Assembly: GCF_017347585.1 (NCBI RefSeq)
Contig: NZ_AP024480.1
Location: 1,014,001-1,078,000, forward strand
Direction: 5' to 3'
Source: Caldicellulosiruptor diazotrophicus
GTDB taxonomy: Bacteria; Bacillota; Thermoanaerobacteria; Caldicellulosiruptorales; Caldicellulosiruptoraceae
DNA length: 64,000 nt
The notes below the pieces were generated by a model. That model did no database searches. It saw nothing but the letters and a program-made list of their open reading frames with translations, and was not told the origin of the DNA. Position numbers and translations under genes: made by a program. Below are positions 39,493 through 47,755 of this stretch, piece by piece (position 1 is the first letter of the stretch; every line of letters starts with the position of its first letter).

Positions 39493-39521
39493 TTGACAAA
39501 AACAAATGAAATCATTAAAAT
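39493..39521 (+). promoter_or_regulatory. Original host promoter of tRNA-Leu(UAA), now reading into the element
   Basis: TTGACA (39493-39498), 17 bp, TAAAAT (39516-39521). The -10 is inside the 60-bp duplicated block. After integration this promoter reads through the tRNA 5' half into the integrase gene, and I see no terminator before 39754. Confidence 0.7.
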
Positions 39522-39573
39522 ATATAATTGCGATGCCGGAGTGGCGGAACTGGCAGACGCACAGGACTTAAAA
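39514..39573 (+). repeat. Left attachment-site repeat (60 bp)
   Basis: Identical for 60 bp to 47375-47434. The block spans the -10 promoter element and the tRNA-Leu(UAA) 5' half up to the last base of the anticodon loop. It marks the left end of the integrated element; the crossover lies somewhere in the block. Confidence 0.9.
39535..39573 (+). pseudogene. 5' half of tRNA-Leu(UAA), severed by the element
   Basis: Matches bases 1-39 of the complete tRNA-Leu(UAA) at 47396 through the anticodon loop CTTAAAA, then diverges (CTACCAAAT...). The 3' half, including the variable arm, T-arm and acceptor strand, is missing here, so this copy cannot form a tRNA. It is a relic of integration. Confidence 0.92.
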
Positions 39574-39753
39574 CTACCAAATATGGATGTAATTAGAAAC
39601 TAAGAATTATCAAGGCTTTGAACATTTTAAATTTACACAATTGAGTAAAAAGGTCTGTTATGGTCATGAAATAAAAACAGGAGAACAAAGTATTATCCAA
39701 ACGCAGCCACCAAACACCAAAAGAATAAAAGTAGGTGTGAGGTGGTTTTTATT

Positions 39754-40713
39754 ATGCCTAAACAACTCAAAGTCAACAATTCAAATTCAGATTGGGAAGA
39801 CGCATTACAGCTTTTCTTATCTTACAAAAAAGCACAAGGTAGAAGTGATTTAACGATTAGGGACTATGAACGTCACATCAGTTCATTTTTTAGACGTTAC
39901 CCAGATTGCTTTAATGACACAGAGAAGTTAAGAAAGTGTTTGATTGAGTATTTATCGCAACCAATGAAACCAGTGACTTACAATCTAAGAATGAAAAACT
40001 TGAAAGCCTTTTTAAATTGGTGTGTTGAAGAAGGGATTATTCCGTCAAATCCCATTGCTAAATTCAAGCCAAGAAAGACAGATGACAGAATTGTTGAAAT
40101 TGACATTGAAACACTTCAAAAGCTACTCCAGTTACCAAACAGAAAAACATTTGCTGGTTTACGTGATTATGCATTGATGTTATTGACACTTGACACAGGA
40201 ATAAGACCGAAAGAAGCCTTTTCTTTGCTAAAAGACCATTTTGATTTTAAGAATTTGCAGGTTGTAATTCCTTCAGATGTAGCAAAGACAAGAGTATCAA
40301 GAGTGTTGCCAATCTCACCAGTAACAGCAAACGCAATTAAAAAACTCATATCTTCAAGACATCCCAAATGGGATGACAGCGTTCCTGTATTTTGTTCAGT
40401 ATCAGGAAAGCCTTTAAACAGGTATAGATGGAATGAAAGAATGAGAGAGTATAGTAAACAATTAGGTGTGAAAATAAGACCATATGATTTAAGGCATATG
40501 TTTGCTTTGCTGTATCTCAAAAATGGTGGTTATGAATTGAGTTTGCAAAAGATAATGGGACATACAACATTGGAAATGACAAAAAAGTACGTCCACTTTA
40601 CCCAGAAAGACCTACAAGAAATTCATGCTAAGGCAACACCGATTAACACTTTGCTAAAACAACCCTTAAACAGGGTTGGAAATATAAAAAATCAAAATAA
40701 AAAGAAGGAGTGA
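39754..40713 (+). CDS. Tyrosine recombinase / integrase
   Basis: Catalyses element integration and excision. The ~319-residue protein has an N-terminal SAM-like core-binding domain (about 15-105) and a catalytic domain. Catalytic residues are visible as Arg in TLDTGIRPKEAF, Arg in PYDLRHMFAL, His in IMGHTTLEMTKKY and the Tyr of KKYVHF. The first His of the usual HxxR box is Tyr here (YDLR). GAGGTGG with 9-base spacing selects ATG 39754; a GTG at 39742 overlaps that site. The gene reads away from the left attachment site, and its stop overlaps the next gene's Shine-Dalgarno. Confidence 0.93.
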   Translation: MPKQLKVNNSNSDWEDALQLFLSYKKAQGRSDLTIRDYERHISSFFRRYPDCFNDTEKLRKCLIEYLSQPMKPVTYNLRMKNLKAFLNWCVEEGIIPSNPIAKFKPRKTDDRIVEIDIETLQKLLQLPNRKTFAGLRDYALMLLTLDTGIRPKEAFSLLKDHFDFKNLQVVIPSDVAKTRVSRVLPISPVTANAIKKLISSRHPKWDDSVPVFCSVSGKPLNRYRWNERMREYSKQLGVKIRPYDLRHMFALLYLKNGGYELSLQKIMGHTTLEMTKKYVHFTQKDLQEIHAKATPINTLLKQPLNRVGNIKNQNKKKE

Positions 40714-40721
40714 GTTTAAAG

Positions 40722-41051
40722 ATGTTATACCATTTTTATGATGAGGAAAACAAAATAGACTTCTTTGTTGGCTACAGTGACGTGTTTAAAGACAATCAGG
40801 TTGCAGGTGGTGGTTGTTTAATTTTAGAGGAAATGGGCATTAAAAATGTTTATCTTCAAGTGAACAGAAAAATTGACAGAGACAAAAGAATAAAAGCGTG
40901 GTTTAAGCTATTAGAAGGGATTGATAAGGCTTTAGGAATGTTACCATCTCAAAGTAGTGTTGTAAGAGTGTATGCCAACGAGGACAAGCTTTCAGGTGTA
41001 ATTGCTGTAGTGGACGAAAAAGAAGACGCAGAAGTTGTAATGACATACTGA
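40722..41051 (+). CDS. Element-encoded small protein, unknown
   Basis: A 109-residue soluble protein: MLYHFYDEENKIDFFVGYSD, then VAGGGCLILEEMGIKNVYLQ and a terminal SGVIAVVDEKEDAEVVMTY. AAGGAGTG, which includes the integrase stop codon, gives ATG 40722; the upstream GTG at 40710 overlaps it. It is probably co-transcribed with the integrase. I recognise no domain. It could be a recombination directionality, defence or counter-defence factor, but nothing in the sequence decides this. Confidence 0.7.
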   Translation: MLYHFYDEENKIDFFVGYSDVFKDNQVAGGGCLILEEMGIKNVYLQVNRKIDRDKRIKAWFKLLEGIDKALGMLPSQSSVVRVYANEDKLSGVIAVVDEKEDAEVVMTY

Positions 41052-41321
41052 GATAAAAAAGTTGTATGCACAAGTTTAAAAATTGTATTATGTAAACCTT
41101 ATCAATACAGAACAAATGTTTTTGTATACCCAAACAGGGTATGGTATTAGAAAGAAAATCAGTAATACCAAGCAATTGAATTGATAGCAAAATGCACAAT
41201 AAAAATGAAGTATTCACTATCATGTGACGTTATCACTACCTTTTATTTCAATAGTATCAAGCCTTTTAAAATAGTGCATTTTTCACAACACAGCTAAAAA
41301 TAGGGTTTTTTACAACATTTG

Positions 41322-41330
41322 TGGTATAAT
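41322..41330 (+). promoter_or_regulatory. Extended -10 promoter upstream of the XRE gene
   Basis: TGGTATAAT, an extended -10. The predicted transcript starts about 35 bp before the hairpin at 41373. Confidence 0.45.
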
Positions 41331-41372
41331 AGTATATAGAAGGGTAAAAAGTGAACACACAAATTTTAAAAA

Positions 41373-41425
41373 AAAGCTGCCTTCAGAAGAAGTTTTAAGC
41401 TTCTTTTGGGGCAGCTTTTATTTTT
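41373..41425 (+). terminator. Terminator/attenuator in the leader of the XRE gene
   Basis: AAAGCTGCC / GGCAGCTTT (41373-41381 and 41410-41418) with inner AAGAAG/CTTCTT, followed by TTATTTTT. It lies between the putative promoter and the XRE ATG at 41455. Confidence 0.75.
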
Positions 41426-41454
41426 GAAAAACACAGGAAAGGAGTTGATTTAAA

Positions 41455-46416: not shown

Positions 46417-47353
46417 TCAGGTTTTGTTGTAAAATGGTATTTGCAATATAGAGACTGAATTGTTTATGTTAAAGTGTGAAGGTTATAAAAAACTGGTGAA
46501 TTTAAAAGCAGGTTACCTTAATTGGTTGTTTGGATGTTGATTTGAGATAGAGAGAGACAGGATTAAATTTGGATGGTATAATGCGACATTTTTGCACAAA
46601 ATGAGTAAACCTTGGTGGGGTATTAAGTTTACACATCCAAACCTTGAGAGATGGCTAATTGAGAATGATTTTCAATTAGGAAAATAGGGTCAAACTGTGC
46701 TATTTTGTAACTGGTAATGAAGGAGATAGGGCAGTTTACAGAACAGAAAATAAATTACAACAAAGATGATTATTAGCATTTGGAAAACCAAAACCATGGC
46801 ATAGTAAGACAAATAAGGTGGCATTGTAAATTTATGTTTGCACAAAATAGCAATTTTGTGCAATGTTAAAATGTGGCAATTATTTAAAGTCAAAAGCTTT
46901 TGGTTTTAGGAAAGTTTATTCAATGGTTGTGTTATAGGTTCGCAAGTTGCGAGGTCGTCAATAGTGTTTGGATATGTCAAACTACCTTTTCTTTGACCTT
47001 TGTTTGCAAAATAGAATTGATTTCTGGCAGCAATTAAAAGGAAAGTAAAGCCATGAAGCAGCCAAAAGCAAGGTGTAGGGGGCAAGAATTTGAAGAAGGT
47101 TCATTGTTGCGTGCTGCCTTTAGCCGATATTTTGAAGCATAAAATTGGATGTTATGATATGCTGTTATGGCAACAGATAGCAATTAAACTCAAACAAATT
47201 TTCTCTATTGAGAATTCTTTACTTTGGGGTTAAACTGATAACGAACAAACCATACAGGATTTTTGAATGTTTTAATTTGAGAACACTTAAAAGTCCTGTT
47301 CGGTAAATGAGTTTTTTAAAGGTGTTTGGTGGTTTTTGCGAGTAAAAAGACTC

Positions 47354-47382
47354 TTGACAATGCTTGAAAACCCTATTAAAAT
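47354..47382 (+). promoter_or_regulatory. Element-supplied promoter of tRNA-Leu(UAA) and the downstream tRNA cluster
   Basis: TTGACA (47354-47359), 17 bp, TAAAAT (47377-47382). The -35 is in element-specific sequence and the -10 in the att repeat. It replaces the host promoter left at 39493. Confidence 0.75.
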
Positions 47383-47434
47383 ATATAATTGCGATGCCGG
47401 AGTGGCGGAACTGGCAGACGCACAGGACTTAAAA
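47375..47434 (+). repeat. Right attachment-site repeat (60 bp)
   Basis: Identical to 39514-39573. Beyond it the sequence continues into the genuine 3' half of tRNA-Leu(UAA), so this is the element-host junction. Confidence 0.9.
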
Positions 47435-47485
47435 TCCTGGGACCTGAATAAGGTCGTACCGGTTCAAGTCCGGTTTCCGGCACCA
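47396..47485 (+). tRNA. tRNA-Leu (anticodon UAA), rebuilt by the integrated element
   Basis: A class II tRNA with acceptor GCCGGAG/TTCCGGC (one GU), anticodon arm CAGGA-CTTAAAA-TCCTG (TAA at 47430-47432), a long variable arm, T-arm GGTTCAAGTCC and CCA at 47483-47485. The 5' 39 bases are element-derived or shared; the 3' half is host. Confidence 0.97.
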
Positions 47486-47490
47486 GATAT

Positions 47491-47566
47491 CGCGGGGTGG
47501 AGCAGCTGGTAGCTCGTCGGGCTCATAACCCGAAGGTCGGAGGTTCAAATCCTCCCCCCGCAACCA
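47491..47566 (+). tRNA. Initiator tRNA-fMet (CAU)
   Basis: Acceptor CGCGGGG with an unpaired first C opposite A72, the initiator hallmark. Anticodon arm TCGGG-CTCATAA-CCCGA, with the G:C-rich stem of initiators; CAT at 47524-47526; CCA encoded. Confidence 0.96.
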
Positions 47567-47586
47567 AAATTTAAAATATTAAAAAT

Positions 47587-47663
47587 GGCGGCGTAGCTCA
47601 GTTGGCTAGAGCATGCGGTTCATACCCGCAGTGTCAGCGGTTCGAATCCGTTCGCCGCCACCA
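47587..47663 (+). tRNA. tRNA-Met (elongator, CAU)
   Basis: Acceptor GGCGGCG/CGCCGCC, anticodon arm TGCGG-TTCATAC-CCGCA (CAT at 47621-47623), T-arm GGTTCGAATCC, CCA encoded. A tRNA-Ile(CAU) is less likely from the overall sequence. Confidence 0.9.
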
Positions 47664-47680
47664 TTTTATGTAAAGGTTAT

Positions 47681-47755
47681 GGCCCCGTGGTCAAGTGGTT
47701 AAGACACAGGCCTTTCACGCCTGTAACAGGGGTTCGAATCCCCTCGGGGTCACCA
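47681..47755 (+). tRNA. tRNA-Glu (anticodon UUC)
   Basis: Acceptor GGCCCCG/CGGGGTC, anticodon arm CAGGC-CTTTCAC-GCCTG (TTC at 47714-47716), T-arm GGTTCGAATCC, CCA at 47753-47755. Last tRNA of the Leu-fMet-Met-Glu cluster. Confidence 0.97.

Follow-up and report, generated by a model that had tools for sequence, protein, structure and literature searches.

An integrative element in a tRNA-Leu(UAA) gene of Caldicellulosiruptor diazotrophicus that carries the 5′ half and promoter of its target, with complementary ends that may control the integrase

We analyzed a window of 64,000 nucleotides from Caldicellulosiruptor diazotrophicus (contig NZ_AP024480.1, positions 1,014,001 to 1,078,000, forward strand; positions below are those of the window). 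It contains a 7.86-kb element that interrupts a tRNA-Leu(UAA) gene and is bounded by an exact 60-bp direct repeat, 39514-39573 being identical to 47375-47434 (repeat spacing 7,861 bp), so that the element extends from 39514 or 39574 to 47434. From its left end it encodes a tyrosine integrase (int), a 113-amino-acid open reading frame (ORF), a Cro/CI-like helix-turn-helix (HTH) regulator, an excisionase-family HTH protein, a replication protein and two small ORFs, followed by a repeat-containing non-coding stretch of about 2.5 kb (Table 1). The int ORF was listed from a GTG at 39742, and the ATG at 39754 is the likelier start; its best NCBIfam models were XerC, XerD and XerA, every one of them below its cut-off. 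About half of the replication protein is 56% identical to the ATPase of the C. bescii plasmid pATHE01. Searches of the main ORFs with Pfam, NCBIfam and PHROGs gave no relaxase or type IV secretion genes, which places the element outside the integrative and conjugative elements (ICEs).

Table 1. Features of the element and of the tRNA operon that it interrupts (window coordinates).
Feature	Position	Strand	Remarks
tRNA-Leu(UAG), host, intact upstream neighbor	39395..39479	+	ARAGORN; also neighbors empty sites
Native host promoter of tRNA-Leu(UAA), TTGACA-17-TAAAAT	39493..39521	+	Position matches native promoter in empty-site genomes
Int-side attachment (att) copy: -10 and host 5′ half of tRNA-Leu(UAA), truncated gene fragment	39514..39573	+	Exact repeat
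Presumed 7-bp crossover, int side: anticodon loop CTTAAAA	39567..39573	+	End of identity block; cleavage positions inferred
Lock, 5′ arm of hairpin before int, CCACCAAACACC	39707..39718	+	Exact complement of 47321-47332
Lock, 3′ arm, GGTGTGAGGTGG (39734-39745), then TTTTT	39734..39750	+	Holds Shine-Dalgarno-like AGGTGG
int, XerC/D-like tyrosine integrase	39754..40713	+	PF00589, E=7e-28
113-amino-acid ORF overlapping int end	40710..41051	+	No Pfam, NCBIfam or PHROGs match
Cro/CI-type HTH regulator	41455..41667	+	PF12844/PF01381
Excisionase-family HTH protein, Xis candidate	41948..42142	+	TIGR01764, 59.6 bits (cut-off 28.8)
Replication protein	42373..44244	+	DnaB N-domain, AAA_25, winged helix
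Weak promoter-like site toward att, TTGAGA-17-TAAACT	47208..47236	+	Candidate int promoter (P_int) in circle
Key, GGTGTTTGGTGG, at distal element end	47321..47332	+	Complement of lock arm
Element-borne promoter of tRNA-Leu(UAA) and operon, TTGACA-17-TAAAAT	47354..47382	+	Identical in G004 and G011
Distal att copy, element-borne: -10 and 5′ half of tRNA-Leu(UAA)	47375..47434	+
Reconstituted tRNA-Leu(UAA): element 5′ half, host 3′ half	47396..47485	+	ARAGORN
Initiator tRNA-fMet	47491..47566	+	Only copy found in genome
Elongator tRNA-Met	47587..47663	+	ARAGORN
tRNA-Glu(UUC)	47681..47755	+	Second copy elsewhere (G000:C1:26483)
Intrinsic terminator-like site closing tRNA operon	47769..47794	+

The repeat begins at the -10 region (ATTAAAAT) and extends to the end of the 7-nt anticodon loop of tRNA-Leu(UAA) (CTTAAAA, 47428-47434); crossover in the anticodon loop is a class already in the literature. 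A preliminary description of this DNA had reported the identical block and had claimed that only its right copy continues into a 3′ tRNA half. The block is exact with the boundaries given to it, and the complete tRNA lies at the right copy only. The locus thus has a 5′ tRNA fragment upstream and a complete tRNA at the distal end, as in 5′-fragment tDNA islands. With an att repeat at each end, a tyrosine integrase gene beside the tRNA att site and an empty site in relatives, we regard it as almost certain that this is a plasmid-like int/xis/rep integrative element whose Int recombines at the anticodon loop of tRNA-Leu(UAA).

The tRNA array was searched in 12 Caldicellulosiruptor species. The array predicted for relatives free of the element, Leu(UAG)-Leu(UAA)-fMet-Met-Glu without interruption, was found in 9 of the 12 and also in a neighboring genus (G012), in each case with a native promoter having TTGACA. 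The remaining three species (the window genome, G004 and G011) have an occupied site with a duplicated 5′ half and an element-specific -35. At the distal end, TTGACAATGCTTGAAAACCCTATTAAAAT is identical in all three, while the spacer of the native promoter on the int side differs from host to host. A chance or recombination-derived tandem duplication of the half-tRNA in place of an att site has a negligible probability and was rejected on the empty sites and flank divergence: tRNA sequences are repetitive and att blocks look like duplications, but three species whose flanks have diverged share the same 60-bp boundary at each end, the precise empty sites already contradict a duplication, and throughout the integrase family each end has one tRNA fragment with int just inside.

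The occupancy of the same site in three congeners could also reflect a single ancient insertion that was inherited vertically and is not mobile. Against this, int is 97-99% identical in DNA among the three occupied genomes and the int end of the element 95-96%, whereas the chromosomal flanks of the window are only 77-78% (left) and about 68% (right) identical to those of G004 and G011. The element of G004 is moreover 13.7 kb long, with extra DNA, and closer relatives of the host lack the element. Vertical inheritance is therefore very unlikely and was rejected on flank divergence; these identities show that the element must have moved horizontally and been inserted into this site repeatedly. 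Horizontal spread in turn implies that the element can probably be excised and form a circle.

We then considered the consequences of the insertion for the tRNA operon. A promoter with the sequence TTGACA-17-TAAAAT had been claimed at both copies of the repeat, with the right -35 in element DNA, and no terminator had been seen among the Leu(UAA), fMet, Met and Glu genes; all of this was borne out. The host promoter (39493-39521) now reads the 5′ fragment and then toward int, and the -35 of the right promoter (47354-47382) lies outside the 60-bp repeat and is thus element-specific. Between the four tRNAs, the scan of the + strand found no terminator or promoter, the first terminator-like site being that at 47769-47794. 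The promoter and terminator scan was a simple consensus match, and its terminator part was blind to the hairpin before int because the loop of this hairpin exceeds 8 nt. The anticodon stem-loop of the initiator tRNA had one match in the genome, and a genome sequence search gave no other full-length gene for Leu(UAA) or elongator Met; the tRNA census comprised 42 search matches and was incomplete, tRNA-Ile(GAU) and tRNA-Ala not being among the matches read. Since the initiator tRNA had a single match and the operon lies downstream of the element promoter, the sole initiator tRNA gene is placed behind a promoter of the element. The operon is probably transcribed from 47354-47382, and, as the initiator tRNA is single-copy, an imprecise loss of the element would plausibly be costly to the host.

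Alternatively, the operon could be fed mainly by read-through within the element or by an undetected internal promoter, the element promoter being a passive passenger. A second, weak promoter-like site (47208-47236) does lie upstream of the operon, detection rested on a simple consensus scan, and the -10 is common to the host while the spacer of the element has drifted. However, the element promoter matches the consensus at 11 of 12 positions with a 17-nt spacing and is unchanged in three hosts, no promoter-like site was found between the tRNAs, and a related element in another tRNA gene (G010, described below) likewise carries everything from the -35 (GTGACA) to the -10. We therefore consider a passive promoter improbable.

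That related element encodes an integrase 93% identical to that of the window and is inserted in tRNA-Leu(CAA). Its repeat is 99 bp long and runs from the -35 through the same last base of the anticodon loop, with the complete tRNA at the end far from int. The window's own genome has the empty tRNA-Leu(CAA) site with the same promoter; from this and the 99-bp repeat it follows that the G010 element supplies promoter and 5′ half to another tRNA.

What an element in a tRNA gene contributes is almost always the harmless 3′ end. Further members of the integrase family (37-100% identical) were collected from 754 genomes; a related-locus search of genome contigs gave no relatives of Int, and these were obtained by genome sequence search. 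Nearly all family integrases lie 45-290 bp downstream of a complete tRNA (or transfer-messenger RNA, tmRNA) gene, and wherever the distal end could be read it has a repeat of the 3′ part, the common 3′-carrying mode. This includes the sister clade of the window integrases (69-70% identity), whose elements sit in tRNA-Arg(UCG) and carry its 3′ half with int on the same side. Only a 5′ fragment stands beside int in four places in the family: the window clade; G329 in tRNA-Arg(CCG), with the complete tRNA at the distal end on another contig, the sister L076 being 3′-carrying in a tRNA of this type; a clade whose fragments are from Phe, Lys and Arg tRNAs (L136, L138, L188, L133 and L193, with distal ends beyond reach); and the region of the circle attachment site (attP) of the Moorella phage MTATph1. 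The integrase tree requires at least four changes of polarity, so by this tree 5′-carrying has arisen at least four times within one family that is otherwise 3′-carrying. A single clade for all 5′-carrying integrases was rejected (approximately unbiased test, p=9e-91; the group was defined after viewing the tree). Since the side of the target on which int lies never varies, it is the attP arm keeping the tRNA sequence that changes and not the orientation of the element.

Several further loci were noted in this survey. In the MTATph1 record (OR602862.1, 95097-95182; L172), a "tRNA-Phe" is annotated beside the integrase gene; ARAGORN rejects it and it matches only the 5′ part of tRNA-Phe, so that it is probably the attP. 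The same integrase family occurs beside tRNA-Sec and tmRNA genes (L101, L102, L077, L113), apparently further targets. A broken int relative with an internal TAG lies next to tRNA-Leu(CAG) in G002 (L074, 9377-10223), an element remnant near the same tRNA array.

The leader of int shows a second feature of the family. In the window, the ATG at 39754 directly follows a hairpin and TTTTT, and in a side-by-side comparison of leaders nearly all members had a hairpin before the int start whose 3′ arm contains a Shine-Dalgarno sequence and which is followed by a U tract. The 5′ arm of this hairpin (the lock) is complementary to a sequence at the distal end of the same element (the key). For 20 elements with both ends known, we scored complements of the 5′-arm region lying no more than 160 bp from the distal att block. 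The mean score was 14.5 for an element's own end. Controls scored 8.2 (dinucleotide shuffles), 8.0 (distal ends of other elements), 8.9 (a neighboring leader segment) and 8.0 (direct repeats). The complement was significant (p<0.05) in 17/20 elements, and an element's own distal end ranked first among the 20 in 15/20. When the whole leader was scanned without bias, the top complement lay on the 5′ arm in 14/19. The complement test of the 5′ arm, repeated on a second set of eight later-found elements, gave p<0.05 in six; for one of the eight, L207, the match may be a core-like site and not a key.

Folding agreed with these scores. By partition function, the 5′ arm paired with its own distal end with a mean P of 0.41, compared with 0.025 for swapped ends. 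With the key present, the predicted probability of the window hairpin fell from 0.93 to 0.02, and the key-lock duplex was stronger than the hairpin at 37, 65 and 75 °C. The sequences themselves differ between elements while complementarity is kept, as between the window (CCACCAAACACC) and G010 (AAGGGACACCA), and in the close tRNA-Arg elements L071-L073 three positions of the helix changed on both sides. Promoter-like sites upstream of the key and directed toward att were more frequent across the family than in shuffles (p=0.004) and on the opposite strand (p=0.03); at the place of the window candidate, L071/L073 have TTGACT-17/18-TATGAT/TATATT. At the int end of the window element no promoter of int's own was found, the two host tRNA promoters being the only ones in 39150-39800. 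The integrated int thus appears to lie behind a host tRNA promoter with a predicted attenuating stem-loop in its leader, as described for ICEKp1.

Because key and lock would share a transcript only in the circle, these features suggest an RNA switch that senses circularization. In such a scheme, attP would have the 5′ half of the tRNA and its complete promoter on the arm away from int. Integration would leave the host promoter and 5′ half beside int, while the host 3′ half with fMet, Met and Glu would receive the 5′ half and promoter of the element; in the window lineage the same step would hand the tRNA operon to the element promoter. Once integrated, int would stand behind active host tRNA promoters and be kept low by the hairpin with its ribosome-binding site (RBS) and U tract. 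After entry or excision the ends would be joined into a circle, in which a transcript starting in the distal end could cross attP and carry the key. The key may then pair with the 5′ arm of the hairpin and free the RBS, so that Int is made and the element integrates, which would move the key to the opposite end and close the lock again.

Several observations weigh against this control of int. Three of the 20 elements have no significant complement, and in L102, L105, L106 and L108 the key leaves the predicted folding unchanged. G-U pairs are not in excess over A-C mismatches (11 vs 21 with flanks), which gives no support for pairing of RNA. No significant key was found in the attP of MTATph1 (p=0.11) or in the circle-like contigs L127 and L129. 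In the window, the tRNA promoter is situated between lock and key, so that transcripts from it would lack the key, and the site proposed as P_int is weak.

The strongest competing explanation is that the complementary ends are inverted sites in the DNA to which Int, Xis or a host factor would bind in the attP complex. Inverted sites usually flank attP cores, the lack of a G-U bias fits DNA sites, and the same arm contains other inverted core-like repeats that follow the anticodon-stem sequence (ACAGGATT...AGTCCTGT). On the other hand, the sequences diverge between integrases that are 93% identical while complementarity stays, the unbiased scan located the int-side partner in the 5′ arm of the Shine-Dalgarno hairpin in 14/19 elements, swapped ends do not pair, and Int has no recognizable arm-binding domain beyond its SAM-like and catalytic domains. 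We hold DNA sites to be a possible but doubtful explanation, and are inclined, with reservations, toward circle-sensing control of int by key and lock, with transcription, translation, crossover points and pairing at the RNA level all deduced from sequence. Our leaning is slightly weaker for the idea that the whole family of tRNA-integrating elements uses such a switch and has kept it through changes of tRNA target and of the tRNA half carried. Taken together, the anatomy of the element and the circle-sensing RNA switch are likely to be the best explanation of the locus.

Other sequences in the arms and in the non-coding DNA deserve mention. The inverted repeat of ACAGGATT and AGTCCTGT lies at 47254-47300 and in the matching distal arms of L070, L072 and L073; its stem tracks the target anticodon stem (GCTGGA/TCCAGC in the Leu(CAA) element), and these repeats are candidates for extra core-type sites of Int that change with the target. 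At 39604-39622, shortly 3′ of the tRNA part, there is a TATCAAGG-like motif, which is found at the same place in L071-L073, L127, L131 and many family members and recurs in the right part of the window element. About 0.9 kb of the non-coding DNA (45555-46425) holds three to four diverged repeats spaced by about 240 nt (motifs GTATAAAGATATTACC and ATCAAG). It is conserved in part in G004 and G010 and is perhaps an origin or an RNA; an Rfam search of the long non-coding right part gave no match. In G009 (L071), two related elements stand in tandem behind tRNA-Arg(UCG), the second int with an internal TAG, and at their junction a key precedes the leader of the following int, a natural setting for a test of the switch.

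As far as a limited literature search can tell, three things seem to be new: that polarity changes within one integrase family, that complete tRNA promoters have been captured for two targets, and that key and lock covary across many elements. If the operon with the sole initiator tRNA gene has a promoter owned by a mobile element, a part of that element would be needed for host translation. At least four changes of polarity with a constant int side would make the evolution of integration sites directly accessible to study, and key-lock complementarity would make a recent suggestion on integrase control in ICEs, concerning how an element senses its integration, testable in many natural variants.

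Among known systems, the 5′-fragment islands of Islander are the closest in anatomy, the target being restored by the 5′ tRNA part of the element. Of 3,919 islands, 3,760 have a 3′ and 159 a 5′ fragment (PMC4383910); the preliminary description was right that most tRNA-targeting integrases carry the 3′ part, the 5′-carrying ones being a rare but known class. Unlike in that minority class, the 5′ part is here accompanied by the promoter, as the empty sites prove, and polarity is traceable on the integrase tree. A recombinant tRNA expressed from a promoter of the element is described as rare in bacteria and is known for pTN3-like archaeal integrases (PMC8371274), which likewise have their att site in the 5′ half of a tRNA-Leu gene. 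In contrast to these suicidal integrases, which are split on integration, the ORF of the bacterial XerC/D-like Int (39754-40713) remains whole, and the promoter looks like one captured from a tRNA gene. The C. bescii plasmid pATHE01 (NC_012036) has a related ATPase/replication protein and a similar size, but it is a free plasmid annotated without an integrase.

For the control of int, the nearest parallels are ICEKp1, ICEclc and ICEEc1, in which int lies behind a host tRNA promoter when integrated and a distal-end promoter when excised, and leader stem-loops terminate transcription (PMC13023037). For ICEKp1, the authors suggested in 2026 that a 15-nt sequence of the 3′ end may pair with one stem-loop (PMC13023037). 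The host tRNA promoter before int, the leader stem-loop and the possible end-to-leader pairing are shared with the present element; unlike that single case, complementarity here covaries over many elements, in another integrase family and in other hosts. In Tn916, which has an insulating terminator (T1) and the antiterminator canT (PMC11658703), element genes are similarly insulated from host read-through and relieved upon excision. However, canT is a processive antiterminator inside the element, whereas key and lock lie at opposite ends and would be joined by circularization.

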